A stretch of 47,069 nucleotides of DNA from the IMG/VR virus record IMGVR_UViG_3300038551_000023, positions 1 through 47,069 of that record, one strand, 5' to 3'. Below, one piece after another: positions 30,422 through 44,914 of this stretch. The translations under genes and the position numbers were made by a program. The DNA comes from a virus. Each line of letters starts with the position of its first letter. Within the stretch, counting starts at the first letter, position 1. Under the pieces are notes generated by a model that was given only the letters and a program-made list of their open reading frames with translations, searched no databases and was not told where the DNA came from.

Positions 30422-31066
30422 TCAGAGTTCGTCTGCGTCAGGCGTGCTCGCCATGAGTTTCTCCAACCGCTTGCAGACTGCGCGGCAGATCGGGTGCTCG
30501 GCATCTTCGGTGCTGACGTAAGCCAGCATCTTGGTTGCCAGCGGCACAGGGATAGCGGGATTGTTGCTTGCCAAGCTCAGGAATTTCTCCCGCAACGCGG
30601 CTTGCTGTTTCTTCCCTTTTTCCTCATTGCCGTAACGCTCCGTCGCGGCCTTGCAGGTTTCGCTCGCGTCATACCATGCACCGATCGCGTCACCATTGAG
30701 GCGCTGCGAGGTCTGCTGTTGCGCCATCTCGGAGACAACAGCCGAGAAGCTGAGAAAGTCTGCGGGGATGTTCTTCGCGTCTTTCTTCTCGTCGCAATAG
30801 CGCCGCAGGATGGTTGAAGCAGCATCAAGGAAAACAGAGTGCAGCGCAGCCGTGAAGATGTTTTGCACTTCGGTTTCCTGCTGCTCGTTGCTGCCGTCGC
30901 CGTAAGCAACGCAGTCAAGGCCCGTATAGCTCGGCACCAGCACTGCGCGATAGCTGTCTGCTTCGGAGACTTTCTTGCGGCGGAAACTGATGCACTGCTT
31001 CCCTGCTTCCGCTTTCGGTTCGGCGCTGAAAATTTCCAGTGCCGTTTGCTGCTCTGGCGTATCCAT
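30422..31066 (-). CDS. Unknown helical protein, first gene of the leftward arm
   Basis: This is 214 residues, with AGGAG 7 bases before ATG 31066. It is helix-rich after residue 65, with SVFLDAASTILRRYCDEKKD and LATKMLAYVSTEDAEHPICR. GC content and codon choice are clearly higher than in the terminase genes, more like the 220-residue gene at 37140. An eye alignment of residues 90-205 to that protein (W..D...C/Y.A...R...; KF.....N; L...LA) suggests remote homology. It lies next to the control region and would be transcribed early. Function is unknown. Confidence 0.7.
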   Translation of the reverse strand: MDTPEQQTALEIFSAEPKAEAGKQCISFRRKKVSEADSYRAVLVPSYTGLDCVAYGDGSNEQQETEVQNIFTAALHSVFLDAASTILRRYCDEKKDAKNIPADFLSFSAVVSEMAQQQTSQRLNGDAIGAWYDASETCKAATERYGNEEKGKKQQAALREKFLSLASNNPAIPVPLATKMLAYVSTEDAEHPICRAVCKRLEKLMASTPDADEL

Positions 31067-31904: not shown

Positions 31905-32069
31905 ATGCCCGGAATGAGAGAGCAACTGAAACAAGCGAAAGACATTTACGAACTGGAAAAAATCTGGCACGAAGTGATGTTCAGAGCACGCACCGGAACA
32001 CTTAGTATTAAGGCGCAAAGACGGTGCAAGAAAGTTTGGGAAGAGAAAAGCAGAGGGTTCCAGAAATGA
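31905..32069 (+). CDS. Small charged protein, first gene of the rightward arm
   Basis: This is 54 residues from ATG 31905, with GAAGGGA about 7 bases upstream; a start 33 bases earlier lacks a ribosome site. It is helical and strongly basic at the end (RRCKKVWEEKSRGFQK). It overlaps the next gene by ATGA. Being the first early gene, it might act on the host, but nothing is recognised. Confidence 0.65.
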   Translation: MPGMREQLKQAKDIYELEKIWHEVMFRARTGTLSIKAQRRCKKVWEEKSRGFQK

Positions 32070-33094
32070 GCACTGAACCTCTAGCCTTGGACAAATTCCA
32101 TATGCCGCTAGTTTGCGTGCGTAGTGGATTATTCCTCGGCAAATTCTACCCCAGCGTAGGACTTGCAAGCACAACTCCCTACGTCCAAGCATGGAAAGAA
32201 ACAACTTTCCTACATCCAATCTTCAGTCTCTCACTAAGTGCTCTGCTTCATCGCGCCACAGCTTGCTGGCAGCTTGAGAAAAGTGGAACCAAGCAGTTTC
32301 CAATGCAGCACAAACAACTGCTTTTCCTCGCAATGCTGCACGCAAGCAACTGCATCAAACAAGATGTTGCAGGCTTGCCAAGTCCAAAGATCGTAGAAGT
32401 ACACTTCACACGAGTGATTGAATTACTTGGGTGGAAAAACGATCAAGCTAGTGAACGTTTACAGTTTCCGCGTCTGCACATTTGGAAAGGTGCAGTAAAG
32501 GAAGATGCGGAAAATCTGTTCAGGAATGTTCCTGCATGGATAAGTGCCTGCGAAAGTGTCCGCGATGAATGGGAAAACGTAGTTAGAGAGAGCCAGAAAA
32601 AAGCTAAGGCGCAGGCTACCGCGCTAGCAATGCGGAACATTCGGCGCGCCATGTATCAAGATATCTCCCTGCGGCGCCTTTGGAATTGGATTAGCACACA
32701 GGTTCCGCAATCTGTCTTAGAAAACAACAGCGACCTGCAACAGCTTTTCTTTGCAGAAGAATCACAGATCAATGTCTGGACTGAGGAAGATATCACAGCT
32801 CTTGAAGATCTGGTGATTCAATACTGCGAACTAGGTAATTCCATCAGCCATGAAGTAATGCGTAGAATTAAAGAGCTGATGGGCTGGTGGCAGATCTACT
32901 ACGATACATTCGAAATTGTCGTGGACACCGAGAAATTCAGCGGCTACAAAGGCGCCCCGGAACCGAAACTTGCAGACTTCACAACGAAAGCTGCATATCT
33001 CGTTGAGCTGGCGCGCTGGAAACTTGGAAACATGGAGCAGAAAGCAGCGTCCACAACGGCCAAGGGCAGCAAGATTACTGCGGAGGATCTGTAA
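32066..33094 (+). CDS. Unknown 342-residue protein with ITAEDL tail
   Basis: The start ATG 32066 lies in an ATGA overlap with the previous stop. The protein is mostly helical, with a basic Ala-rich stretch near residue 180 (ESQKKAKAQATALAMRNI) and a Trp/Tyr-rich segment (IKELMGWWQIYYDTF) near 275. The final residues KGSKITAEDL form a charged tail ending in a motif shared with two other proteins of this arm. It is located just before the helicase-protease gene, so a replication role is plausible. No family is recognised. Confidence 0.65.
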   Translation: MSTEPLALDKFHMPLVCVRSGLFLGKFYPSVGLASTTPYVQAWKETTFLHPIFSLSLSALLHRATACWQLEKSGTKQFPMQHKQLLFLAMLHASNCIKQDVAGLPSPKIVEVHFTRVIELLGWKNDQASERLQFPRLHIWKGAVKEDAENLFRNVPAWISACESVRDEWENVVRESQKKAKAQATALAMRNIRRAMYQDISLRRLWNWISTQVPQSVLENNSDLQQLFFAEESQINVWTEEDITALEDLVIQYCELGNSISHEVMRRIKELMGWWQIYYDTFEIVVDTEKFSGYKGAPEPKLADFTTKAAYLVELARWKLGNMEQKAASTTAKGSKITAEDL

Positions 33095-33226
33095 ATGAAG
33101 TGGATACGAGACACTGATGGCGATCTTGGATTGTCTTTTTGGAACATTGTAGTGTTTATCAAGTACAAACACTCAGTGATTGTAGAATTCTTCAAAGATT
33201 ATCCACAAGCTGAGAAGTGGACTTAG
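33095..33226 (+). CDS. Tiny protein between replication genes
   Basis: This is 43 residues (MKWIRDTDGDLGLSFWNIVV...EKWT). GGAGG at 33082-33086 lies 8 bases before ATG 33095, and the gene starts directly after the previous stop, so translation is likely. The middle is hydrophobic and beta-like (FWNIVVFIKY) between acidic and Lys-rich ends. The stop TAG overlaps the AGGAGG of the next gene. Function is unknown. Confidence 0.55.
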   Translation: MKWIRDTDGDLGLSFWNIVVFIKYKHSVIVEFFKDYPQAEKWT

Positions 33227-33234
33227 GAGGAAAG

Positions 33235-35559
33235 GTGAGCCTTGACAAGAATCGTTTGCTAGAGCTGATCGCTGAAGCAAAAAAGCGAGAAGCAGAACGT
33301 AAACAACAGGCAGCGAATCCTGCTCCTGTCCCTACGCACCATCACAAAACTGCGGAAGAAATTGTTGCTGCCGCAGTTACGGCTGCCGATCCTAATGCAT
33401 TCGAATGGAATGAGGAACAGCAACGCGCCATTGATCTAGCAGTTACGCGGAAAAGTTTCTGCTTGATCGGCGCGGCTGGCACTGGCAAGACAACTACTGA
33501 GCGCGAGATTGTTCGCCGCCTCATTGCAGAGAATGTAGCAGTGCCTCTTTCTATGAGCACAAAATACCTGAAGCATGGTGTTCCGGGTATCGTGCTTACT
33601 TCCTTTACTCGCCGTGCAGTGCGGAATATGCGGAAGGTAGTTAGTGAGGAAATGAAAGAGCATTGCATTACTCTACACAAACTTCTGGAATACGAACCTG
33701 TATACTACGAAGTTTGGGATAATGAAACGCAGAAGTACAAAAACACAATGCGTTTCGAGCCAATGCGCAACAAAGAGTGCAGGCTTCCCAATGAGCTAAC
33801 TACCGTAATCATTGACGAAAGCTCAATGGTAAGCACTGACTTGTTCCAGAAACTTCTAGAAGCACTGGCATCTGTGCAGAATACGCAATTCATCTTTGTC
33901 GGTGATTTGCACCAGCTCCCGCCAGTGTACGGCCAAGCAATCCTTGGTTTCAAACTTCTGGACTTGCCTACGATTGAACTCACAAAGATTTATCGGCAAG
34001 CACAGAAATCTCCCATCATCACTCTCGCGCATAAAATCAAGAATGGTGAAGATATCCACCAAAGTTCCGAGAATGTGAAAATAGCGACTGAACAGGGCAC
34101 TGTAACTATCAGACCGTGGAAGAAGCCTCTTAGCGACTTTGATGCTACGCTAACAGCAAGTGCCTTCCTCAAGAAACTAGTAGCTGAGGGCGACTACAAT
34201 GAAGAGGAAGATATTATTCTCTGTCCGCAAGAGAAAACCAAGAATCTCGCCTTCGGAACTAACGAGTTTAATAGAATTATTGCACAAGCTCTTGGTGACA
34301 AGAGAGATGCAGATGTTTACGAAGTTATTGCTGGATACGAAAAGCACTATCTCGCAGTCGGAGATAGATTGCTCGTTGGAAGGGAAGATGCTGTTGTTAC
34401 GGCTATCGTTAAAAATTCCAAATACTGGGGAAAGCGGCCTAAGCAGCATTCTCCAAATTTGGATAGATGGGGAAGCTACAAAGCCAAAGTAGAGGCCGAT
34501 AGCGATGATGCCGATTTTGACGTTGATAAGTATCTTGAGAACTTCAGTCTTGAAGGCCAAGATAAAGACGACGACAGAAAGCAGGAAGCTAGCCATGTAG
34601 TTACGGTGGAGCTGCTTGATTCTGGTGCTACAGAGAATCTCACAACTGCTGGAGAAATCAATGCAACGCAATTTGCCTACGCCCTCACTGTGCATAAGTC
34701 GCAAGGCAGTGAATGGAACAGAGTCTTTTTCCTTACTCATCAATCCCATGTCATTATGTGGAACAGAGAACTTCTTTACACTGCTGTTACTCGTGCTAGA
34801 CAAGAACTCTACATTATCTGTGAACCTGACAGACCGGGACGTAGAGGAACTCTTTGGAAAGCTGCAAAATCTCCTAGGATCAAAGGGGATACACTTGCGG
34901 AGAAAGCAGAATTCTTCAAAGGCAAGCAAGAAGAGTACCAAAACAAATACAAACAAGACTTCAGCGATGCAGACAGCGGGCGGAGAATCTACAAAGAAAC
35001 TCCCAAAGAGTCTGCCCCAACCCCTACAATTCCCCCGGCGCCGCCAGTACATCTAGTTAAGATGCATGAGTTTGTTTCTGAGGCATTCAAAAAGAAAGCT
35101 TCAGAATCTCTCCGCACATTCTGGAACAAAGCACTGGCAATCTGGGGCTTTGGAAAGATTGGGCCACTCCCTACGATAGATTACAATTTGCAGCGGCATT
35201 CTGTCGTAGGGCTGGCGCGCCTGCAACTCCAACAGATTGCACTAAATCCAGTTTGGTGCATCATGGCAGAGAAAGATCCTGCGGTTGCTCATGAAATGCT
35301 CCATGAAACTATTGGGCATGAAGTTGCCCATCTAGTAGCATGGAATTACAGCAAAGATCGCGGCCATGATTCTGGATGGATCATGACTATGAAGCTGCTT
35401 GGGTTGACTCCTGATGTATTCCTGAATGACAAAGATCTTCCTAACTGGGCAAAGCAGTACAAAGAACTAATGCAAAAAACGCTGGAAGAATTGAAGGCAA
35501 CAAAGAACGCAGATACTTCTGAAGATTCCACTGGATTTAACTCCTACGACGAGGTGTGA
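33235..35559 (+). CDS. RecD/Dda-like helicase fused to SprT-like metalloprotease
   Basis: This is 774 residues from GTG 33235, which has AGGAGG 4 bases upstream; a GTG at 33217 lacks a site. Residues 60-560 are an SF1B helicase: Walker A GAAGTGKTT (79-87), Walker B IIDES (D194, E195), motif III FVGDLHQLPPV, motif IV IYRQ, motif V ALTVHKSQGSEW, motif VI YTAVTRARQELYII. An acidic insert (about 415-455) precedes motif V. After a Lys/Pro linker (550-615), the last 150 residues are SprT-like: HETIGHEVAHLVAW with zinc ligands His695, His699 and His711 (RGHDSGW) and catalytic Glu696, then MKLLGLTP. SprT/Spartan proteases cut proteins crosslinked to DNA. A 5'-3' helicase carrying one could clear roadblocks from the phage genome. 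Both halves look intact. Confidence 0.87.
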   Translation: MSLDKNRLLELIAEAKKREAERKQQAANPAPVPTHHHKTAEEIVAAAVTAADPNAFEWNEEQQRAIDLAVTRKSFCLIGAAGTGKTTTEREIVRRLIAENVAVPLSMSTKYLKHGVPGIVLTSFTRRAVRNMRKVVSEEMKEHCITLHKLLEYEPVYYEVWDNETQKYKNTMRFEPMRNKECRLPNELTTVIIDESSMVSTDLFQKLLEALASVQNTQFIFVGDLHQLPPVYGQAILGFKLLDLPTIELTKIYRQAQKSPIITLAHKIKNGEDIHQSSENVKIATEQGTVTIRPWKKPLSDFDATLTASAFLKKLVAEGDYNEEEDIILCPQEKTKNLAFGTNEFNRIIAQALGDKRDADVYEVIAGYEKHYLAVGDRLLVGREDAVVTAIVKNSKYWGKRPKQHSPNLDRWGSYKAKVEADSDDADFDVDKYLENFSLEGQDKDDDRKQEASHVVTVELLDSGATENLTTAGEINATQFAYALTVHKSQGSEWNRVFFLTHQSHVIMWNRELLYTAVTRARQELYIICEPDRPGRRGTLWKAAKSPRIKGDTLAEKAEFFKGKQEEYQNKYKQDFSDADSGRRIYKETPKESAPTPTIPPAPPVHLVKMHEFVSEAFKKKASESLRTFWNKALAIWGFGKIGPLPTIDYNLQRHSVVGLARLQLQQIALNPVWCIMAEKDPAVAHEMLHETIGHEVAHLVAWNYSKDRGHDSGWIMTMKLLGLTPDVFLNDKDLPNWAKQYKELMQKTLEELKATKNADTSEDSTGFNSYDEV

Positions 35560-35560
35560 A

Positions 35561-35803
35561 ATGGAAGGTGAAATCAGACCAATCACAGACGGGGATGTTT
35601 TCTGTGAAGATGACAACTCATTTGTCGGGAGCTACGAAAACATCGAGAAAGAAAGCATACCCTTGGAATTGAGTGTCTACTACAAGGGTAAACTGTTTAT
35701 CTACACACTAGCTAGAAAGGAACAGTACGAAAATGACGCCGGAAATGAAGAAACAACTGGACATGGTGTGCTTGAAGCTGACGGAAGAACTCAAGGTTCC
35801 TAG
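35561..35803 (+). CDS. Small acidic protein, unknown
   Basis: This is 80 residues, with GAGGTG just upstream inside the helicase end. It is acidic in the first half (DGDVFCEDDNSFVGSYENIE), followed by a beta-like LELSVYYKGKLFIYTLARK. Its last 71 bases overlap the next gene in another frame; both have ribosome sites. Confidence 0.5.
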   Translation: MEGEIRPITDGDVFCEDDNSFVGSYENIEKESIPLELSVYYKGKLFIYTLARKEQYENDAGNEETTGHGVLEADGRTQGS

Positions 35804-36089
35804 AGATTTTATTGAACTCACCATTAACTGCTCCCTTCTAAATACGAAACTCCAAGTTATTGGGAACAGTATTCAAGACAAAAGAATAGATATAAAGGGC
35901 ACATTTGCTCATTTGTCCAGTGAGTTGATGAATATCTTGGTCTGCGCCGGGAAACTCTTGCCAACGCCTTTGAATAGTTTGGAAGTAGTCGGCATTGAAA
36001 ACAAGGTAGCAGAAGGAATTACTCCAATCGTGCAATTCCATTACTTCGGAGTGGCAGTACAAGATCGTAAACAGGAGGTAATACAATGA
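35733..36089 (+). CDS. Small helical/beta protein, unknown
   Basis: This is 118 residues, preceded by AAAGGAA at a normal distance. The N-terminal half is helical (MKKQLDMVCLKLTEELKVPR), and the end is a beta hairpin (IVQFHYFGVAVQDRK). It overlaps the previous gene by 71 bases and the next by ATGA. It is not recognised. Confidence 0.6.
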   Translation: MTPEMKKQLDMVCLKLTEELKVPRDFIELTINCSLLNTKLQVIGNSIQDKRIDIKGTFAHLSSELMNILVCAGKLLPTPLNSLEVVGIENKVAEGITPIVQFHYFGVAVQDRKQEVIQ

Positions 36090-36724
36090 TTGGCAATGAT
36101 AATTCTGGTAAACTAAAACAATTGGTGAAGTTGGCTGAAGAAGCGTGGGTTGCTACTGGATATCCGGCAACCGCATATCTTCACACAGAACTTCTTGCAC
36201 TTCAGTCCTCCGCTGCTGCCAGTGCGAGCGGTGCATTGCTCGCTGATGCGCGACTTGTAAACGCTCCATATGAGCCGAGAAAACGGGTCATTGGCATCGT
36301 GATTGACGAGGACAAGTTTCAATATATGCACGAAGCTATCGATTGGCTGCGATCTATGCTTGTTACAGCGCCGTGCAACATGGACGTGATTGTGTCACAT
36401 GAGCGTCACGAGCATCTGCTGGCGTGCGAGAAGGCGGCACAACGGTATAACGAGGAACAGCAGGCCGCAGTAGAGAATGCGACGCTGGCAAAAGTTGCGT
36501 CAGTAAGCAAGCGCGAGTTGGATGCAGAATGCTACTCACCCGGAGATACAGAGATTCTGCATTTGCGCGATCAAGTCAAAGCTATAAAAGAGCGCGAGCA
36601 GCGGGCGGTGGAGTTGGTGCGAAAAGCATTACAGCGCGCGATGCAGGATTACGGCGCGACAGAGAAGGAACATTACAAACAGGAAGCGGAAGAATATGCC
36701 GCCTTGCTCGGAGACTACAAATGA
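36086..36724 (+). CDS. Coiled-coil-like protein, unknown
   Basis: This is 212 residues, translationally coupled on both sides (ATGA overlaps). Residues 70-110 contain a small alpha/beta segment (IGIVIDEDKFQYMHEAIDWL). Residues 130-210 are charged helices likely to form a coiled coil (QVKAIKEREQRAVELVRKAL). From about 36210 to 36715 the DNA is richer in GC and in CG dinucleotides than its neighbours, so this part may have been acquired separately. Confidence 0.6.
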   Translation: MIGNDNSGKLKQLVKLAEEAWVATGYPATAYLHTELLALQSSAAASASGALLADARLVNAPYEPRKRVIGIVIDEDKFQYMHEAIDWLRSMLVTAPCNMDVIVSHERHEHLLACEKAAQRYNEEQQAAVENATLAKVASVSKRELDAECYSPGDTEILHLRDQVKAIKEREQRAVELVRKALQRAMQDYGATEKEHYKQEAEEYAALLGDYK

Positions 36725-37026
36725 TGGTATTTCCAAGTATGCTAATGACTGCTGCAACTCAAGCAGGAATGAAAGTTCCAACAGAGTCTGAATTGGAAAG
36801 ATATGAGGAAGTAGAAGATCTAGCGAGAGATTTTCCAGACTTTATCCAACGCTATCCGCATTTCCATGTATTCTGTAATCTTCAACTTTGTCGGCCTATT
36901 CGTTGGGGAGAACATTGGGAAAATGCTAAAGTAATTGCGGCCATTCCTCTGGAGAAATTAAAAACAATGACTCTAGAAGATTTTATTGCTGCTGGATTAG
37001 AGTATCATACTGCTCCATCAATCTAA
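36721..37026 (+). CDS. Small protein, unknown
   Basis: This is 101 residues from ATG 36721, with GGAG 7 bases upstream and an overlap with the previous stop. It has an acidic helix (TESELERYEEVEDLARDFPD), then PHFHVFCNLQLCRP, and ends with helices typical of a small globular domain. AT-rich codons resume here after the GC-rich preceding gene. It is not recognised. Confidence 0.6.
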   Translation: MMVFPSMLMTAATQAGMKVPTESELERYEEVEDLARDFPDFIQRYPHFHVFCNLQLCRPIRWGEHWENAKVIAAIPLEKLKTMTLEDFIAAGLEYHTAPSI

Positions 37027-37064
37027 TTTTCTGTGCCACACCATCCCCCTTTCCGGCGCGAGTG

Positions 37065-37073
37065 TGTTATGCT
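37065..37073 (+). promoter_or_regulatory. Extended -10 promoter candidate
   Basis: TGTTATGCT (TGn plus TATGCT) lies in a 113-bp gap, 67 bases before the 37140 start. No strong -35 is seen. It would give the abundant-looking 220-residue gene and its downstream ribozyme their own transcript. Confidence 0.4.
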
Positions 37074-37139
37074 GTTCATGCCGGACGAACAACCGGGAAC
37101 CACAAATCTTTTAACCACAGAAGGGAAGTACACAAAGTC

Positions 37140-37802
37140 ATGTCTGAAACCCCAACGGTTGTAAACATTCCTACCGAAGCAAAGGAAACTTCCTTCCACT
37201 TCAAGAAAGAAAAGATCCGTGATCCGAAAGGTTCCGTGATCGGTGAAGGGAAGAAACTTCCTAGCCTGAAGCTGAATGTTCCTGTTCCTACGGCTGAAGG
37301 CGTGCTGGAAATCGTGAAAGCTGGCGGCAAAGAACTGGAGTTGCTGCTTTCTGCCTGTGCTGATACTGTGTACGGGCGTCTGCGCACTGTCATCAATGAA
37401 GTGCGTGAGAAACTTCCGGCAGATGCTGAAATCAAGCCTGAAATGATTGACCTGTCGCAAGCTAGTTGGTCGGTCATTGCCAGCATTCCAAAAGCGCAGC
37501 GTGCTGGCCTTGGTATCAGCGACGAAGATTGGAACGATTTTGCTGCTGACTACCGCGCAATCATGGCGGCGGCCACTGGCAAAGATGCTGACCGGATCGA
37601 AAAGCATATCCAGCTTTTCCAGAAGAAATTTGCGCCCTGCCGCAATGACAAGAAAGCTCTCGGTGTTCTTAAAGAGATGCTTGCTGTCTGGGCTGCAAAC
37701 ACTGGCAGCATGGAAGATAACCAGACTGTGTACGAATACCTGAGCAATCGGGTTGACAGTCTGCTGGCCGAGGAAGAGAAGATTCTTTCCGAAGCTCTGT
37801 AA
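37140..37802 (+). CDS. Unknown helical protein upstream of the hammerhead ribozyme
   Basis: This is 220 residues (MSETPTVVNIPTEAKE...). A basic, beta-like start (SFHFKKEKIRDPKGSVIGEG) is followed by a long helical part: VIASIPKAQRAGLGISDEDW, NDFAADYRAIMAAATGKDAD, then LKEMLAVWAANTG. Codon choice is like that of the capsid gene, suggesting strong expression. The closest ribosome-site candidate, GAAGGGAAG, is about 15 bases upstream, farther than usual. It may be a remote homologue of the 30422-31066 product. The stop codon is directly followed by stem I of a hammerhead ribozyme, so its mRNA would be cleaved about 75 bases after the stop. Function is unknown. Confidence 0.7.
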   Translation: MSETPTVVNIPTEAKETSFHFKKEKIRDPKGSVIGEGKKLPSLKLNVPVPTAEGVLEIVKAGGKELELLLSACADTVYGRLRTVINEVREKLPADAEIKPEMIDLSQASWSVIASIPKAQRAGLGISDEDWNDFAADYRAIMAAATGKDADRIEKHIQLFQKKFAPCRNDKKALGVLKEMLAVWAANTGSMEDNQTVYEYLSNRVDSLLAEEEKILSEAL

Positions 37803-37882
37803 ACCAACTGATGAGCTGGTGAAATTCCAGCGAAACGAGGAAGGGTTACAAATGGATTGTATCCTCCCTTTCTCGTCTTGGT
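37803..37882 (+). ncRNA. Type I hammerhead ribozyme
   Basis: All invariant core positions are present in order. Stem I is ACCAA (37803-37807) with TTGGT (37878-37882). The core CTGATGA is at 37808-37814. Stem II GCTGG/CCAGC (37815-37819, 37827-37831) closes a 7-nt loop and keeps the G10.1-C11.1 pair. GAAA follows at 37832-37835. Stem III CGAGGAAGGG/CCCTTTCTCG (37836-37845, 37866-37875) is 10 bp with one G-U and is extended by TACAA/TTGTA. The cleavage triplet GTC is at 37875-37877, with cleavage after C37877. Stems II and III are capped and stem I is open, so it is type I. It starts at the first base after the preceding stop codon. Loop-loop tertiary contacts cannot be judged by eye. Confidence 0.9.
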
Positions 37883-37911
37883 AATTTAATAGATGCTGTG
37901 CTTATTCTAGG

Positions 37912-38098
37912 CTAGCTACCTAGATTTTGTGGGATTATAAAAAGCACACTGGAACCACAGTAACCAGTTAGGTAGAGGCCAAACCTTGCAGTAACGTGCT
38001 GTGAGGTTCTACCTAAGAGAGCACTGGGATGGTGAAGTTAAGCCCATCAAAAATGAAAGCAGTGCTCTCCTAGGTAGTTGGACGAAGTACCCCACAAA
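37912..38098 (+). ncRNA. Structured non-coding RNA with pseudoknot, unknown class
   Basis: Hand folding gives one coherent structure. Closing stem P1 is CTAGCTACCTAG (37912-37923) with CTAGGTAGTTGG (38070-38081), 12 bp with two G-U. A pseudoknot pairs TTTGTGGG (37926-37933) with CCCACAAA (38091-38098), 8 perfect bp. Between them are three hairpins: ACTGG/CCAGT (37948-37968); TTAGGTAGA/TCTACCTAA (37968-38016) with an inner 9-bp ACCTTGCAG/CTGTGAGGT stem; and GAGAGCACTG/CAGTGCTCTC (38017-38069) with an inner GATGG/CCATC. Hairpin 3 abuts both hairpin 2 and P1, as in a stacked junction. It does not match tmRNA, RNase P, 6S, group I intron or riboswitch signatures that I know. Confidence 0.7.
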
Positions 38099-38259
38099 CT
38101 GCGTAACGGACATCCGGCAAACTAATTGAGGCCAAAACATCCGTGGACAATCTGGCACACAACGCTCAGACAATAACGCGAGGGAAGAGTGCTCCGAGTA
38201 ACCCTCATATTCTTTATACAGTGAAGTGTTATCTCTACTATGTAGAAAGAGGCACAAAG
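38099..38259 (+). other. Leader between structured RNA and next gene
   Basis: No gene is seen. It contains a 5-bp hairpin GAGGG/CCCTC near 38181 and the word GAGGCCAAA (38128-38136), which also occurs inside the structured RNA (37976-37984). AAAGAGG just before 38260 is the ribosome site of the next gene. Confidence 0.4.
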
Positions 38260-38517
38260 ATGGATAAACCCCGTCCTAAAACTAACCTTCCTGTAACTCC
38301 CTCCAAGCCATCGCAGTCTGCTGCGAAAAATATCTTCACGATGGCATCGTACAATGCAGAGCAACTGAAGAAACAAGTAGCTCTGCAAACTTCCAACATG
38401 GTAGGCATGGGCATCCTGATGAAAACGCGGGAAATGCGTACTGTGTCTAAATACGCTCCACATCAGGGAGCTAGGGAGATTGCGCGAAGGAAGAAACAGA
38501 GTGGCATCAGTTCTTGA
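38260..38517 (+). CDS. Small basic protein after the structured RNA, unknown
   Basis: This is 85 residues from ATG 38260, with AAAGAGG upstream; an in-frame start at 38143 lies without a ribosome site in the leader. The N terminus is Pro/Lys/Ser-rich and disordered, and the C terminus is helical and basic (APHQGAREIARRKKQSGIS). It may bind nucleic acid. It overlaps the next gene by 17 bases. Confidence 0.6.
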   Translation: MDKPRPKTNLPVTPSKPSQSAAKNIFTMASYNAEQLKKQVALQTSNMVGMGILMKTREMRTVSKYAPHQGAREIARRKKQSGISS

Positions 38518-38827
38518 AATCTTCAACCGTCTTGTAGAAGAAAAACATATAACAATCAAGACAAGTAATTTCAAAACGCATGATGCTCTTCGCATACGTT
38601 TGGTCAAGTGCTACTCTCGCCATAAAGATTTGCTACGAGATATTGGCGTTGATGATGGTAGTAGTAGCCTGTCTGTTTGCGCTATGTTTGCTCCTTCTTC
38701 TGGAACTTCTACTTTTCATATTAGGCGGAGAAAGTCCTCAGAAGAAGGACAGAAACTAGACTTTGAGATTGTGGAAACTCCGCAAACCGGAATTGTCTAC
38801 GATCATGCAAACTCAGAAGGTATCTAG
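38501..38827 (+). CDS. Small protein, unknown
   Basis: This is 108 residues from GTG 38501, preceded by AAGGAAG. It has a mixed alpha/beta pattern: VLEIFNRLVEEKHITIKTSN, LRIRLVKCYSRHKDLLRDIG, then Ser-rich strands. It is not recognised. Confidence 0.55.
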   Translation: MASVLEIFNRLVEEKHITIKTSNFKTHDALRIRLVKCYSRHKDLLRDIGVDDGSSSLSVCAMFAPSSGTSTFHIRRRKSSEEGQKLDFEIVETPQTGIVYDHANSEGI

Positions 38828-38829
38828 CT

Positions 38830-39072
38830 GTGTCTAGACGTTACACTTCTATCTGGATTGCTCTCAAAAAGCACAGGAAAATCACAGTGCGATGCAAGCC
38901 AGAGAAAATGAATACATTAATCCAAGCTGTAAAAAAAGAAAAAGCAAGAGAAGTGGCTCCGCGCCGAGCACTGGAACTTCCGATACCGGGAAAGTTAGAG
39001 ATTACTCGGCACCGAGATAAAGGCGAAATCGAATTCAAACTCGTATCATTCAACCGTTCGGAGAATCTCTGA
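38830..39072 (+). CDS. Small basic protein, unknown
   Basis: This is 80 residues from GTG 38830, 2 bases after the previous stop, with AGAAGGT upstream. It is Lys/Arg-rich throughout (IALKKHRKITVRCKPEKMNT, VKKEKAREVAPRRALELP) and ends in two beta strands. Its charge suggests nucleic-acid or membrane contact. Confidence 0.55.
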   Translation: MSRRYTSIWIALKKHRKITVRCKPEKMNTLIQAVKKEKAREVAPRRALELPIPGKLEITRHRDKGEIEFKLVSFNRSENL

Positions 39073-39074
39073 TT

Positions 39075-39248
39075 ATGGACACCGGCGATAAAATTGTGCT
39101 TGCCATACTGATTGGCATCCTTTCAGTAGCTTTTCTACTTGTCATAGGTACTTATATTTTCAACGAACAGACGTATCGTTGTTATGAAATTTTCCAGTAT
39201 CGTTCGGCTGCTGAGTTGCATTTGCTCTGCAACAGTTCTACTAACTAG
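39075..39248 (+). CDS. Small membrane protein overlapping a lipoprotein gene
   Basis: This is 57 residues from ATG 39075, 2 bases after the previous stop. A strong membrane span is at residues 7-29 (IVLAILIGILSVAFLLVIGT), followed by a 28-residue tail. Its last 65 bases overlap the lipoprotein gene in another frame. This embedded membrane-protein/lipoprotein layout recalls i-spanin/o-spanin pairs, but the periplasmic part is very short for a spanin. Confidence 0.55.
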   Translation: MDTGDKIVLAILIGILSVAFLLVIGTYIFNEQTYRCYEIFQYRSAAELHLLCNSSTN

Positions 39249-39492
39249 CTGCGCGCAATCTGACGTAGTTAAAATCCGTTGGCTGCGTGTAGCAGACCCA
39301 CACAAATTCTGTGCTGCAATGGCTACGAAATCTTATGGCAATCAAAAGATTCTTGGCTGCCAATTCATTGCAGACGATGGCATCTGTACCATAGTAGCTA
39401 AAGATTTTGCTACTGAAACAAACTACAGAGAAATGTATGTTCTTGGTCATGAAGTCAAGCACTGTTTTGATGGTAAATGGCACCCTGAATAG
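39184..39492 (+). CDS. Lipoprotein with zinc-protease-like HExxH motif
   Basis: This is 102 residues. The signal sequence is basic then hydrophobic, with lipobox LLTSC (Cys23), so the mature protein is likely anchored in the outer or inner membrane facing the periplasm. The C terminus reads VLGHEVKHCFDGKWHPE: His89, Glu90, His93 and His100 have the spacing of a small metalloprotease site. Four further Cys could form disulfides. It could act as a periplasmic protease, a superinfection-exclusion lipoprotein, or an outer partner of the overlapping membrane protein at lysis. Which of these holds is unknown. Confidence 0.65.
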   Translation: MKFSSIVRLLSCICSATVLLTSCAQSDVVKIRWLRVADPHKFCAAMATKSYGNQKILGCQFIADDGICTIVAKDFATETNYREMYVLGHEVKHCFDGKWHPE

Positions 39493-39501
39493 GAGATTAC
39501 C

Positions 39502-39687
39502 ATGCCAGCAGAATTTGATGCGTGCAGAAAAGCTGGAGGAAAGATTAGAACAGTCTCCGGCCCTTCCCAGCAATGGGGATTAAGTGCAAATGAATACTTG
39601 CATATCTGCGTTCGCAGAAACGGTTCAGTTGTCCGTGGAGAAAAGAAAACAAAAGTCAGCATCACTAGCAAAGAAAAGAAAACGTAA
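39502..39687 (+). CDS. Small conserved-type phage protein, unknown
   Basis: This is 61 residues, with TAGGAGA upstream of ATG 39502. The pattern PAEFDACRKAGGKIRTVSGP, then NEYLHICVRRNG, is one I associate with small single-domain proteins common in phages of Gram-negative bacteria. The tail is Lys-rich. Function is unknown. Confidence 0.65.
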   Translation: MPAEFDACRKAGGKIRTVSGPSQQWGLSANEYLHICVRRNGSVVRGEKKTKVSITSKEKKT

Positions 39688-39763
39688 TCGCGCCTACTAC
39701 AAGCGCAATGCAGAAGTTATTCGCATGAAAAGAATGTTGCTTTACTATGCCAATAGACCCTAA
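39635..39763 (+). CDS. Tiny basic protein overlapping both neighbours
   Basis: This is 42 residues from GTG 39635, in a second frame over the end of the previous gene. It is very basic (EKRKQKSASLAKKRKRNRAY, then YKRNAEVIRMKR), a composition seen in short nucleic-acid-binding phage proteins. No clear ribosome site is seen, and an in-frame TTG at 39629 is an alternative. It overlaps the following gene by 17 bases. Confidence 0.4.
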   Translation: MEKRKQKSASLAKKRKRNRAYYKRNAEVIRMKRMLLYYANRP

Positions 39764-40022
39764 AAATATCTTCATGTTTCCTGAGAGCTACAATGAACTC
39801 AGGAAAGAATTGTATACCCACTGGCCGGAACTTTGGAATGATCCGCGCGGTGGTTGGGCAATGGCATTTGATGCAGAACTCTTTGTAGAATTCATGAATT
39901 CAAAACTCGATGGAGTCTATAAGGTTCGTCCTGCAACTAACAATGACGAACTTGCTATTGACTACATCTGCAAAACCTTTCTAACAGAACTCAGGAAAAG
40001 ACGTGGAGAACTCAATCCGTGA
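39747..40022 (+). CDS. Small protein, unknown
   Basis: This is 91 residues. Trp/Glu-rich helices (YNELRKELYTHWPELWNDPR, GGWAMAFDAELFVEFMNSKL) suggest a compact alpha-helical domain, and the end is basic (LRKRRGELNP). It overlaps the next gene in GTGA. Confidence 0.6.
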   Translation: MPIDPKNIFMFPESYNELRKELYTHWPELWNDPRGGWAMAFDAELFVEFMNSKLDGVYKVRPATNNDELAIDYICKTFLTELRKRRGELNP

Positions 40023-40216
40023 AACCAAAGAAATGGATTACATTTAAAATTAAAGTTCCCACTACAGGAACTGATGGACAACCTTTAGACCCTAGAGTAG
40101 TTAAAGAATATATTAAAGATGCAATAGAGAGTTGGTCTGGACAATTCGACCCCAGTGAAGATAATATGTTTTATTGGGCTAAAAATAAAACTAAGGTGAC
40201 TCGTGTCAGAGCTTGA
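40019..40216 (+). CDS. Small basic protein, unknown
   Basis: This is 65 residues from GTG 40019 (GTGA overlap). It has a short beta strand (KKWITFKIKVPTTGTD), one helix (VVKEYIKDAIESWSGQFD) and a basic end. It resembles one half of a small alpha/beta domain. It is not recognised. Confidence 0.55.
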   Translation: MKPKKWITFKIKVPTTGTDGQPLDPRVVKEYIKDAIESWSGQFDPSEDNMFYWAKNKTKVTRVRA

Positions 40217-40496
40217 TCCTCAAAAGAATCCACAGCTTCTAGCACTTCTCCCCAAGCTGGAAGCCCTAGAGAAAGCTCTTCTATCTGCTGATCCTTTGAT
40301 GCCTACGCATCTTAAGGAGATTCATAAGCACTTAATCCAATACGAAGAGCTAGCGCATCTGTTGACTGAAGATCAAATTGCTGTGATCTTGGAAGGTCAG
40401 CAGAAGAAGATTGGAATAATCCTTGCTGCTGAAACTACGAAAGCAAAAGGATCTAATTCCAAAATCAAGGGAGGCGTAAGTGCTGACGACCTCTGA
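40203..40496 (+). CDS. Small helical protein with SADDL tail
   Basis: This is 97 residues from GTG 40203, preceded by TAAGGTG. It is helical throughout (LLALLPKLEALEKALLSADP, HLLTEDQIAVILEGQQKK), followed by a flexible Lys/Gly/Ser segment and the C-terminal GGVSADDL. This is one of three proteins with the shared [IV][TS]A[DE]DL tail. Its last 17 bases overlap the next gene. Confidence 0.65.
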   Translation: MSELDPQKNPQLLALLPKLEALEKALLSADPLMPTHLKEIHKHLIQYEELAHLLTEDQIAVILEGQQKKIGIILAAETTKAKGSNSKIKGGVSADDL

Positions 40497-40833
40497 GGAT
40501 GGGCCGTTTTGTTGTGATTGTAAATATCTTGTAGGGGTAAGACGAAACCTTGAAAACGCCAAGGATTGGCGGTGTAACCATCCAAAAAATATACTACATA
40601 AAGGTTATGATCCAGTTTCTGGTATTCCTGTTTATATTCGCAAATTTGAATCTTGTAACCTTTTGCGAGAACGACAAGATATTTACGAAAAAAAAGAAGA
40701 TGCAACTGCTTGCTGTATTGTGGGATATTGGTACGAAGAATACGTAGATCCTCTCTCCCTCTACGAAGAATCTCAAGCAACTAAAAAACAACAAAAACAA
40801 TCTCTCAAAAATATTACTGCTGATGATCTGTAG
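40480..40833 (+). CDS. Cysteine-rich, possibly zinc-binding protein with ITADDL tail
   Basis: This is 117 residues from GTG 40480, with GGGAGG upstream. Cysteines in CCDCKYL, RCNHPKN and ESCNLLR are spaced like a small zinc-binding domain, and a CC pair occurs near residue 79. A Lys/Gln-rich linker leads to the C-terminal NITADDL. The nuclease gene starts 2 bases after its stop. It may be a DNA-binding accessory of the recombination module. Confidence 0.6.
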   Translation: MLTTSEDGPFCCDCKYLVGVRRNLENAKDWRCNHPKNILHKGYDPVSGIPVYIRKFESCNLLRERQDIYEKKEDATACCIVGYWYEEYVDPLSLYEESQATKKQQKQSLKNITADDL

Positions 40834-40835
40834 TT

Positions 40836-41906
40836 ATGGCTCTAAATGCTGACGACTTTCTGTCGCTATCACTAGATTCGTCTGCTCCCGAAGCGGAGAT
40901 AGGGACTATTGGTTCCGCTCCTAGCTTTGCGGCTATCCAAGCTCACAAAACATCAAAGAAAAACTATCGTGATGCTTATATCTACATCAACGTAACTTCA
41001 CACAGTCAGATTGAAGTTCTTCAAGACTGTGCTCGGAAGTTTCAGATCTCCAAATCTCCTGCGCACCAAACATCTGAAGGAATCTTCAATATAGATTTCG
41101 TGTTTGGTCATGCCGTGGGCGCAGGAGTCCAAGCATACCTAGCTACTAACTCCCCCACACAAGCACAGCTCGCCTCAATGCTTGCGTGGAACATAGATCT
41201 AGACGCAGAATTTCCAAAGAAAGGTAAAAGTTCTCCGCTCGCAACTTTAGCAGTGGAGAAGTTCATTCAATTTTGGAAAGCTACTTACGAAGATGAGTGG
41301 GAAATTGCACTACTCAATGGTAAACCAGCAACCGAGTTAACATTCTGGATTGATTTTGAGAATGGCTATTTCCATGCTGGGCACATTGATGTAGTCCTGC
41401 GCCACAGAGTTACACACAAGCTCATGGTGGTAGAGATTAAGACTACTGCCATCCGTAGTATTGACGAAGCACAGTACGGTAATTCTGAACAAGCTCTTGG
41501 ATATTCCTTAGTTGTAGATCGTATCGCAGAGTCTACAGAGATTGCACAGAACTATAATGTAGTTTACTTTGTATACTCTAGTACTAACCGTGAATGGCAA
41601 GCTATGCCTTTCATTAAAAATCGTACACAAAGACTTGAATGGCTCCAAGCGCGGCTACTTAACCACGCGAATATTGGAACATTCAGAAAGATTTCTTTTT
41701 TCCCAAAAAACGGGTCTGCTTGCTGGTCATTTAGTTCTCGCTGTCCGCACTATGGTTTGTGCGACATGAAATCTATGCAACGTACAGATTTCCGTGTATT
41801 CGATTCCACAAAAGATCCAATGCCAGAAGCAATGGACTTTACTTTCAAACTTTCTGAACTTGCAACAGCGGTGCTGCGTGAACCAGAGATCTCCAAGAGT
41901 ATTTGA
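40836..41906 (+). CDS. RecB/Cas4-like PD-(D/E)xK nuclease, likely iron-sulfur
   Basis: This is 356 residues. Motif I is SHSQIEVLQDCARKF (Cys65) and FGHAVGAGVQ (His92). The catalytic core is GHIDVVL (Asp185) and VVEIKTT (Glu200, Lys202), followed by EQALGYSLVV (motif with Gln). C-terminal cysteines 306, 313 and 319 (ACWSFSSRCPHYGLC) together with Cys65 have the Cas4/AddB pattern of a 4Fe-4S cluster. Such enzymes resect DNA 5' or 3' ends. Next to a Sak4-like ATPase and an SSB-like gene, it fits an exonuclease plus annealing-protein recombination module. The start NADDFLSL echoes the ADDL tails upstream. Confidence 0.8.
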   Translation: MALNADDFLSLSLDSSAPEAEIGTIGSAPSFAAIQAHKTSKKNYRDAYIYINVTSHSQIEVLQDCARKFQISKSPAHQTSEGIFNIDFVFGHAVGAGVQAYLATNSPTQAQLASMLAWNIDLDAEFPKKGKSSPLATLAVEKFIQFWKATYEDEWEIALLNGKPATELTFWIDFENGYFHAGHIDVVLRHRVTHKLMVVEIKTTAIRSIDEAQYGNSEQALGYSLVVDRIAESTEIAQNYNVVYFVYSSTNREWQAMPFIKNRTQRLEWLQARLLNHANIGTFRKISFFPKNGSACWSFSSRCPHYGLCDMKSMQRTDFRVFDSTKDPMPEAMDFTFKLSELATAVLREPEISKSI

Positions 41907-41955: not shown

Positions 41956-42150
41956 ATGTGTAAGATGTGTGAACAAAAATATAATCCACCAATACTCATT
42001 AAAGGTACACACATTTTAGAATGTATTGGCCCCGCAGAAAATCAATCTGTGCCATGCTGGAAATGCACAGAAACTATTCGCTCTAACGAGACAGTAGAAA
42101 AAGGTACTTTCAAAAATTTAAGGAGAAAGAGTGCTTCTCACAGACTATGA
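41956..42150 (+). CDS. Small zinc-ribbon-like protein
   Basis: This is 64 residues from ATG 41956. CKMC at the N terminus and CWKC in the middle (PCWKCTETIRSN) form a two-CxxC zinc-ribbon pattern; a further Cys lies at IECIG-like position 24. The end is basic (RRKSASHRL). The ribosome site (CCGGAG, 11 bases away) is weak. It overlaps the Sak4-like gene by 20 bases. Confidence 0.45.
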   Translation: MCKMCEQKYNPPILIKGTHILECIGPAENQSVPCWKCTETIRSNETVEKGTFKNLRRKSASHRL

Positions 42151-43048
42151 ACAGAAAAAGTCCCACAAGATTTGTGTATTCGGGCGCGCCAAGGTAGGGA
42201 AAACAGCTTTGGTTGCGCAACTTGCGCGCATCGGCAAACTCTGGTGGTTTGATCTTGAAGATGGAATTAAAACTGCTCTCAATGAATCTATCCTCCCTAA
42301 AGAGTACTGGAAGAACATTGAAGTAATCAGAATTCCATCGCTTCAAGCTGTCCCTATGGGGATAGAAACTCTACTGAAAGTTATCAAAGGCGATGACTGC
42401 AAAATTTGTTGGACACATGGCAAGGTCAGTTGTCCAGTTTGCGGCAAAGATCCTACTGCATATCATACTAATATTTGTCTGCGCAATTTTACTAGTAACG
42501 ATTGGCTCGTGATTGATTCAATCACCCAGCTAAGCGCAGACGCAAATGCCGCAGTTCTCAAATTCATCTTCGGCACTGCCGACACTCCAGAAAAATTCAT
42601 ACTGGATAAAGATACTGGAGGCAAAGATTTCAAATATCCAATGGCTGTGTCTTTTATGCTTGATCGTATCTTTTCCACTATTCAAGCTGGCAACTTCAAT
42701 TGTGCTGTTATCTCTCACGAAGTAATGACTGAGCGCACAAAAGATACAGGACATATGCCGGGAAAAGGAGAGAATCAGCCTAGCGATAATGTAGAAATGA
42801 TCTTTCCTGCGGCGGGGAGTAGAAACTTTAGCCGCAATTTCGGTAAATATTTCGATATGCTGATTCATGTAGATATCGTGAATCGCAAGCATCGTGCATT
42901 TTCTTCCACACTCTATCATCCTACCATCCAAACTGGCAGCAGACTTCCTTTTAACATTGAAGATATGAAAGATGAAAAAGGAAATACACTGACGCCGGGG
43001 GATGCACTAGTAGCAATGTTCAAACCACAGATTAAGGAAACCAAATAA
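42131..43048 (+). CDS. Sak4-like RecA-type ATPase (single-strand annealing/recombinase)
   Basis: This is 305 residues from GTG 42131, preceded by AAGGAGA. The P-loop GRAKVGKT (18-25) is followed by WWFDLEDGIKTAL. Walker B is WLVIDS (Asp129). A zinc-ribbon-like insert, Cys90/93 and Cys101/104 (CKIC...CPVC), lies between them, which is not usual for the family. Sak4 (AAA_24) proteins are phage RecA-like annealing factors that work with an SSB. Here an SSB-like gene lies 450 bases downstream and a nuclease upstream, the expected set for homologous recombination. Confidence 0.8.
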   Translation: MLLTDYEQKKSHKICVFGRAKVGKTALVAQLARIGKLWWFDLEDGIKTALNESILPKEYWKNIEVIRIPSLQAVPMGIETLLKVIKGDDCKICWTHGKVSCPVCGKDPTAYHTNICLRNFTSNDWLVIDSITQLSADANAAVLKFIFGTADTPEKFILDKDTGGKDFKYPMAVSFMLDRIFSTIQAGNFNCAVISHEVMTERTKDTGHMPGKGENQPSDNVEMIFPAAGSRNFSRNFGKYFDMLIHVDIVNRKHRAFSSTLYHPTIQTGSRLPFNIEDMKDEKGNTLTPGDALVAMFKPQIKETK

Positions 43049-43498: not shown

Positions 43499-43960
43499 AT
43501 GTCCGATGAAATGAAAGTAGTTCCTATTGACGATCTGATGGACGCCAGCATTGACGATCTTTCGGATATGCCGAAATTTGAGTTGCCTCCACAAGGCCAC
43601 TACAAATTCAGCGTATCACTGGCGCAAAAAGTTGTCAACGAGAAGAAATGCATTGAAGCTACTCTCGTTGTTGACGAGACTCTGGAATTGGCAGATTCTA
43701 CCCAAGCTCCTGTCGAAGCAGGGAGTAAGTTCAGCGCCCTGTTTATGATGGAAAACGAGTGGGGGCAAGCCTCTTTCAAAGAATTCATTCTCCCGATTTC
43801 TAAAGCCCTTGGTTACAAAACGGTGGGAGAAGCGATTCAGCAGTGCCAGAATGTTAAGGTTGCTGCTGTTCTGAAACATCGCGTGCATAAGGAAGATAAG
43901 GACAAGCCTGCCGATGAGCAGCGCAAGTATCCGAATCTGAAAGATATCACGCCTCTGTAA
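43499..43960 (+). CDS. Probable single-stranded DNA-binding protein
   Basis: This is 153 residues. An acidic N-terminal stretch (VPIDDLMDASIDDLSDM) precedes a beta-barrel-like core: PPQGHYKFSVSLAQKVVNEK, IEATLVVDETLELAD, FSALFMMENEWGQ. A basic segment VAAVLKHRVHKEDKDK and a short KDITPL end follow. I associate this layout with phage SSB-like proteins beside Sak4-like recombinases. Codon use suggests abundant expression. The acidic stretch is at the N terminus rather than the usual C terminus of bacterial SSB. Confidence 0.55.
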   Translation: MSDEMKVVPIDDLMDASIDDLSDMPKFELPPQGHYKFSVSLAQKVVNEKKCIEATLVVDETLELADSTQAPVEAGSKFSALFMMENEWGQASFKEFILPISKALGYKTVGEAIQQCQNVKVAAVLKHRVHKEDKDKPADEQRKYPNLKDITPL

Positions 43961-44715: not shown

Positions 44716-44914
44716 CCCGCGTTGGAAGATTGGTGATGAGGTCTGGACAAACTTTTCAGGGCATTGGACACAACATACTATTACCAAAGTCTTGACAGAT
44801 CGTATTAGTCAAACCGGCGTATCCTATAAAGTAACACCTGCTCTTGGAAATAACTGGGCAGATGCTTACGACGAAGGATGGTTTCGTGCATCTCCTTTTA
44901 GCGACGACGCCTGA
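44660..44914 (+). CDS. Small SH3-like/beta protein, unknown
   Basis: This is 84 residues, with AGAGGAA 8 bases before ATG 44660. KIGDEVWTNFSGHWTQHTIT, KVLTD and VSYKVTPA resemble a small beta-barrel (SH3/KOW-like) of phage proteins. It starts inside the previous gene and ends inside the DNA polymerase start region (29-base overlap). Confidence 0.55.
   Translation: MTQMVSSANSQVNLPFVSNPRWKIGDEVWTNFSGHWTQHTITKVLTDRISQTGVSYKVTPALGNNWADAYDEGWFRASPFSDDA

Follow-up and report, generated by a model that had tools for sequence, protein, structure and literature searches.

Why should proteins without other similarity, encoded in the replication arm of one virus, end in nearly the same short peptide? 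This question is raised by the IMG/VR virus record IMGVR_UViG_3300038551_000023, whose 47,069 bases (hereafter, the window) were analyzed over their full length. An earlier note, made from the letters alone, had described a C-terminal tail of the form [IV][TS]A[DE]DL on three proteins, here named P342, P97, and P117, and had proposed that it docks them to one hub. The three near-identical tails are real: the protein at 32066-33094 ends TTAKGSKITAEDL, that at 40203-40496 ends SNSKIKGGVSADDL, and that at 40480-40833 ends QKQSLKNITADDL, with Lys, Ser, Thr, Gly, Gln or Asn abundant in the segment before each tail. Read from the DNA, the nuclease at 40836 starts MALNADDFLSLSL, and the protein at 43499, which resembles a single-stranded DNA-binding protein (SSB), has IDDLMDASIDDL near its N-terminus (residues 10-21), both as had been claimed. 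On balance, the best explanation is that the tails are docking peptides resembling the N-terminal arm of the SSB-like protein, which would recruit their bearers to the site of that arm. The features that carry this argument are as follows (loci of relatives are cited by L numbers).

32066..33094, + strand: P342, 342 aa, a folded part followed by a variable linker and a C-terminal tail; open reading frame (ORF) directly upstream of the helicase gene
33074-33091, + strand: tail ITAEDL of P342, read from the DNA; apparently gained in this clade
40203..40496, + strand: P97, 97 aa, a small helical protein and the most regular tail bearer (56 loci; AlphaFold2)
40476-40493, + strand: tail VSADDL of P97, read from the DNA
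40480..40833, + strand: P117, 117 aa, Cys-rich, with a GTG start (ORF; homologues in L017, L018, L082, and L123)
40813-40830, + strand: tail ITADDL of P117, read from the DNA
40836..41906, + strand: PD-(D/E)XK exonuclease (PF12705; profile match)
40845..40859, + strand: NADDF in the N-terminal arm of this nuclease, SADDF in L004-L006 (sequence; position-specific scoring matrix, PSSM)
43499..43960, + strand: SSB-like OB-fold protein (AlphaFold2 mean pLDDT 88.8; best PDB match PrgE)
43526..43561, + strand: N-terminal arm IDDLMDASIDDL of the SSB-like protein, with an [ST]xDD[LI] peptide (column counts, PSSM)

Relatives were gathered through an alignment of the DNA polymerase (80 IMG/VR loci and 7 genome-contig loci), and family members were collected with iterated hidden Markov models (HMMs), giving 58 loci for P97 (56 without duplicates), 31 for P342, 72 for the nuclease, 83 for the annealing protein Sak4, and 85 for the SSB-like protein. 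Before counting, redundant rows were left out, namely L015 and L016, which duplicate the window's near-twin and L006, and L001-L003 and L011-L014, which show the same contigs again; L111-L124 were read by eye, and L123 alone among them was used in a test. Gene-level counts are approximate, since the simple gene caller missed the window's P117, where a longer antisense ORF won.

The tail is most regular in P97. Forty-one of its 54 distinct members end [ILVMF][STGD]x[DENSAG][DEA][LIVFM], compared to 4/1113 other + strand genes of the relatives, and the stricter pattern [IV][TS]A[DE]DL closes 8/54 P97 orthologues vs 0/1113 of these controls. The last residue is L in 40 of the 54 ends, F in 8, I in 3, V in 2, and M in 1, and the penultimate residue is D in 41/54, with no Pro among the residues listed at -2. 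Beside the acids, a hydrophobic residue is conserved at -1 and -6 and Thr/Ser/Gly at -5. The expectation that the end residues are conserved while the linker varies holds for P97: in a set of 42 sequences with core identity below 70%, the six terminal residues have a mean pairwise identity of 0.342 (position-shuffled: 0.132), the preceding 12-residue Lys/Ser/Gly/Ala linker one of 0.201 (position-shuffled: 0.166), and the core one of 0.349. Synonymous codons drift in the tails, among which all six Leu codons are found, and because the codons drift and the peptide stays, the constraint is on the peptide and not on the DNA. In the AlphaFold2 model (mean pLDDT 75.6), helices span residues 10-83 and the linker (residues 85-93) is disordered, with pLDDT under 50, so the idea that the tail is part of the protein's own fold is not supported for P97. 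No solved structure in the PDB matches the P97 fold at E 0.001 or better, and its best BFVD match is an unnamed protein (A0A6G5YAZ4, E 1.7e-3). None of P342, P97, and P117 matches a Pfam or PHROG family above threshold (for the window's P97, E 0.05 and 0.01, with the best PHROG at E 0.39), and PDB sequence searches with A3 and A4 gave no useful match.

P117, which is zinc-type by its Cys-rich appearance, also carries the tail regularly (5/6 distinct members found). Its homologues end VKGVTADDL (L017), SKSKITADDL (L018), and IRDLTVSDL (L082) after unrelated linkers; a paralogue in L017 has no tail, and L123 has a more remote homologue with the end KLTGDDLANL. As an anecdote, P117 (7830-8264), P80 (8972-9268), and P97 (9857-10234) of L123, which are unrelated to one another, end DDLANL, TSINNL, and NDLNNL, respectively, an altered version of the tail particular to that lineage.

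In P342, most of the 31 family members end differently from the window's tail. A tail PSSM score of 5 or more is reached by 3/30 clustered members, all three belonging to the window's clade, and the C-terminal 35 residues over the whole family give no tail signal with this PSSM (z 1.1). Inside the clade, conserved ends again follow drifting linkers: MEQKAASTTAKGSK, KPAGSESEVKEKSRK, and RAEQPASSVQEKNRK stand before ITAEDL, ITAEDL, and ISAEDL, respectively, and L004 and L005 keep the tail behind wholly different linkers. In L104, an orthologue with 48% identity that lies on the L017 contig, the end is the degenerate NLAEEL, and bare GDL or GEL ends in L097, L120, and L121 were kept out of the tail count. 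Orthologues without the tail, which the earlier note had regarded as speaking against a docking motif, thus exist for P342 outside the window's clade, whereas P97 and P117 carry the tail regularly. Because these two are regular bearers, we read the P342 tail, which looks gained, as a gain in the window's clade and not as drift.

The closest counterpart of the tails is the N-terminal arm of the SSB-like protein. An OB fold is predicted for this protein, and the solved structure nearest to the model is PrgE of plasmid pCF10 (Foldseek E 4e-4, with a TM-score of only 0.47-0.54; by VIA, Z 8.6 and rmsd 6.0 over 117 residues), ranking above many SSB and RPA chains. The ssDNA-binding role is putative, with the phrog_378 SSB matched by just 2/71 members. 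Over 71 sequences, the arm has the consensus [LI]D[DSA]L[LMF]D[AGS][ST][LMI]DD[LI]xDLPxF, with D at position 19 in 62/71, D at position 20 in 63/71, and L or I at position 21 in 70/71. When applied to 73 independent SSB arms, the PSSM built from P97 tails gave a mean best score of 8.29 vs 4.57 +/- 0.29 for composition-shuffled arms (z 12.7). The kinship that had been suggested between the tails and the IDDL region of the SSB-like protein is therefore borne out by statistics, and that with the nuclease N-terminus is borne out weakly. Nuclease N-terminal arms score above shuffles with the tail PSSM (z 4.5; 10/54 at 8 or more) and with a 12-residue SSB-arm PSSM (z 5.8; 4/54 at 8 or more vs 1/1151 other N-termini). 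The top nuclease arm is that of L097, MDDFLDAELDGL, and the SSB arm of the same locus is FDDLLDSTLDDL. Many nucleases of the group begin straight at the catalytic domain, without an arm, and the nuclease arm is therefore a lineage trait.

Taken together, the tail is very probably a docking motif, although binding itself is something we infer from sequence. It would be a short linear peptide, [LIVM][TSG][AVLI][DE]D[LI], that closes the chain behind a disordered Lys/Ser/Gly/Ala tether; the tail is a family trait of P97 and P117, and P342 bears it in the window's clade. Because the tail resembles the SSB arm, its bearers most likely plug into the site of that arm; that the two use the same site we rate at slightly under an even chance. 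The tail would then mimic the arm ([LI]DDLLD[AS][ST][LIM]DD[LI]xDLPxF) and compete for its receptor, which would be the one partner of all the tails, and accessory recombination or replication proteins would be brought to SSB-coated ssDNA or to a replication enzyme contacted by SSB. If the site is indeed shared, the leading candidate for the receptor, still short of an even chance, is a neighboring SSB subunit; the DNA polymerase is a weaker candidate, and Sak4 an unlikely one. In PrgE, as parts of the published account describe, the N-terminal tail binds the neighboring subunit on ssDNA, and its removal lowers oligomerization and cooperativity (PMC11137577). A bolder and rather doubtful extension is a single peptide code, in which the [ST]xDD[LI] of the SSB arm was copied by convergence to the termini of at least four unrelated proteins and swaps for the arm in the SSB-ssDNA filament; its bearers would be P97, P117, P342, and the exonuclease, at C- or N-termini, and possibly P80 and P238.

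Several observations weigh against this reading. The SSB arm has A/G/S at a position that is hydrophobic in the tail, and it continues into a trailing xDLPxF that the tails lack. An FKLSELA-type stretch near the nuclease C-terminus scores z 9.9 with the tail PSSM, so some PSSM matches may be ordinary helix starts. Within genomes, tail co-variation is not significant for P97 vs P117 (11/120 permutations as good; 5 genomes) or for P97 vs P80 (1512/2000 permutations as good). In L079, L080, L081, L085, and L090, the P97 tail ends xAF and the SSB arm of the same locus is canonical. The clear P97 orthologue of Aeromonas phage P5 (P5_0042, E 3e-23) ends SIEQIMSML, and the probable homologues of Pseudomonas phage PaP2 and EBPR podovirus 3 end IQSEF and SLEGF. 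The homology of PaP2 gp44, EBPR gp42, and Tiera_038 to P97 is marginal (E 0.002, 0.006, and 0.04, respectively), and these were kept out of the P97 counts.

Terminal docking peptides are already known in principle (SSB-Ct, T7 tails). Bacterial sliding-clamp-binding peptides follow the consensus QL[SD]LF or QxxLF and likewise recur as a single short motif across many replication proteins that are otherwise unrelated, but the tails here are without Gln and Phe at the needed places: neither consensus occurs in the three window tails or the listed P97 ends (the clamp gene itself was not searched for). The SSB-Ct (DDDIPF in Escherichia coli, NDYPPF in the SSB of phage HK620) is likewise a terminal peptide of a few acidic and hydrophobic residues, to which genome-maintenance proteins dock, Sak4 among them, according to excerpts of PMC5928155, and the flexible linker before its conserved end has a parallel in the drifting linkers of P97 and P342. 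It differs in that the peptide here is shared by a number of unrelated proteins and the SSB-like protein, which has it in its N-terminal arm, and in that all three window tails end D-L without a Pro-Phe after the acids. The SSB tails and clamp-binding peptides with which the tails had been compared are thus not matched in the strict sense. PrgE is the nearest fold to the SSB-like protein and has its tail at the same chain end, but identity is about 10%, and its contacts use polar side chains in the structure described in sections of PMC11137577, which name no further proteins bearing that tail. Searches of an open-access library, which are weak evidence of absence, turned up no account of the motif.

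Other partners and other functions would account for parts of this pattern. In a T7-like arrangement, the tails and the SSB arm would bind patches on the DNA polymerase, a family A enzyme, so that accessory proteins are loaded at the fork. In the window's near-twin contig, the polymerase gene comes shortly after the SSB-like gene, and in T7 tails on two different replication proteins act on the polymerase: helicase (gp4) tails bind positive patches on it (PMC8472574, in the portion consulted), and the gp2.5 tail has been linked to binding of the polymerase and the primase-helicase (PMC5686142, likewise in part). Nevertheless, T7 tails are strongly acidic, whereas the peptides here have six residues with few acids (two per window tail), a strict hydrophobic end, and Lys-rich linkers in place of a long acidic stretch, which leaves this arrangement unlikely; co-occurrence with the polymerase is uninformative because nearly all loci were found through it. 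We likewise consider it improbable, if worth keeping in view, that Sak4 reads the SSB arm, as in HK620, with the tails of P97, P117, and the exonuclease competing for or sharing the site to build a recombination complex. The Sak4 gene stands between the nuclease and SSB genes in 54/56 P97 loci, and HK620 Sak4 needs the last six residues of the phage SSB, NDYPPF, to bind SSB-coated ssDNA (PMC5928155, as excerpted), but there the tail is C-terminal and of the SSB-Ct type, and here an OB protein of another family carries the peptide in an N-terminal arm.

An autoinhibitory or DNA-mimicking acidic end, acquired convergently and lying on the DNA-binding face of its own protein, has a precedent in the SSB of Enc34, where removal of the acidic tail changes DNA specificity (PMC5686142, from selected passages). 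We give it little weight, given the few acids and the clear conservation of the hydrophobic -1 and -6 and of Thr/Ser/Gly at -5. Equally little speaks for a host factor as the partner (such as a clamp, a protease adaptor or an SSB-interacting protein), which the earlier note had named as another option. Tiera_039 of Polaromonas phage Tiera ends DMDDDIPF, the last six residues being the E. coli SSB end (given in the part of PMC5928155 consulted), and host-directed tails may therefore exist in the group, but contigs with the tail motif come from bins of widely differing hosts (metagenome-assembled genomes of Anaerolineae, Coxiella, and Ponticaulis), its best counterpart is a phage protein, and a QxxLF clamp motif and a terminal PF are both missing. 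Finally, the tails might be without function, arising by chance, from a DNA-level signal at gene ends such as a ribosome binding site serving the gene that follows, or from short DNA copying between genes. The P342 tail DNA does hold a GGAGG 5' of the next ATG, and the tail DNA of P342 and P117 both match ATTACTGCKGAKGATCTG, found nowhere else in the window. However, the P97 and P117 window tails are without a GGAGG-type site at that position, codons are free to vary in relatives, and the control C-termini do not fit the pattern. The DNA-level explanation was rejected on the varying synonymous codons, and the non-functional reading, already largely refuted by codon drift and controls, is highly improbable. 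Docking by an SSB-arm-like peptide thus remains the favored reading, and the earlier interpretation as a whole is partly supported.

The replication arm contains further proteins, including the candidate partner Sak4:

33238..35559, + strand: Dda-like helicase with a C-terminal SprT-like domain, without a tail (profile matches)
38830..39072, + strand: P80, a small protein ending SENL, with a tail-like end in a minority of homologues
42131..43048, + strand: Sak4-like annealing protein, without a tail, a candidate partner (phrog_124, E 2.9e-13)

With the tail PSSM, no signal was found at the helicase N-terminus (z -1.4) or the Sak4 C-terminus (z 1.3), and the Sak4 N-terminus gave z 3.4. P80 was rejected as a regular bearer, since 7/35 clustered members score 5 or more and there is no co-variation with P97; nearly all of the listed homologue ends are L or I, and P80 as a bearer is a possibility. 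The same is true of P238 (37062-37802; window end LSEAL), in which 5/25 score 5 or more. Outside the replication arm, a - strand protein at 30422-31066 of the window ends STPDADEL, a short acidic end with Leu, and a relative in L005, 50% identical to it, ends SSQSDDL. In Aeromonas phage P5 (L007), a - strand gene at 5270-5830 (187 aa) ends STTISIEDL, the sole tail-like end among 382 minus-strand genes across the loci.

Gene order is stable among the relatives (P342 and helicase, P80, P97, sometimes P117, nuclease, Sak4, SSB, then polymerase). Across the 56 P97 loci, the nuclease is found in 56/56 and both Sak4 and SSB in 54/56, the other two (L005 and L007) ending early. Helicase, exonuclease, Sak4, polymerase, and primase each have homologues in PaP2 (Fredfastierviridae) at E 1e-28 or better, and several of them also in Polaromonas phage Tiera, Aeromonas phage P5, and EBPR podovirus 3; the window's SSB-like protein matches PaP2 weakly (E 0.02 only). 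In phage records, no DNA match was found, and tblastn of P117 and P342 gave no match. The window's polymerase gene is split by the window ends (44900-47069 and 1-198). The near-identical contig behind L003 runs on through both ends, with a 765-aa DNA polymerase spanning the join, and the genome therefore appears circularly permuted; the record represents either a permuted circle or a section of such a circle. Contig IMGVR_UViG_3300021090_000031 (L005 and L006) holds two copies of the nuclease region, alike but not identical, one near each end, which is probably a mixed-strain or over-extended assembly.

Tiera_039 (L008, 9156-9593, 145 aa), which starts with a basic TFKEKLAAK peptide and ends DMDDDIPF, is possibly an SSB-tail mimic in the same gene neighborhood. 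In PaP2, EBPR, and Tiera, several replication-arm proteins have another, basic peptide of the SFLEKLAxKKK type at their C- or N-termini, which may be a second docking code of that branch. Its bearers are the following.

L009: 1038-2066 and 11492-12448
L010: 135-1124 and 6157-6453
L008: 9156-9593 and 13578-14540

Peptides at protein ends that keep replication complexes together have been described chiefly in a handful of model systems, E. coli SSB and T7 among them. In the present case, a large group of uncultured phages has a peptide that recurs on unrelated proteins and on an SSB arm, so that its partner network may be partly readable from sequence. The peptide gives a handle on three uncharacterized families, P97, P117, and P342, which it would tie to SSB and recombination genes, and it provides a candidate peptide-receptor pair that is directly testable. 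In P342, the group also seems to show such a tail being gained by an unrelated protein.

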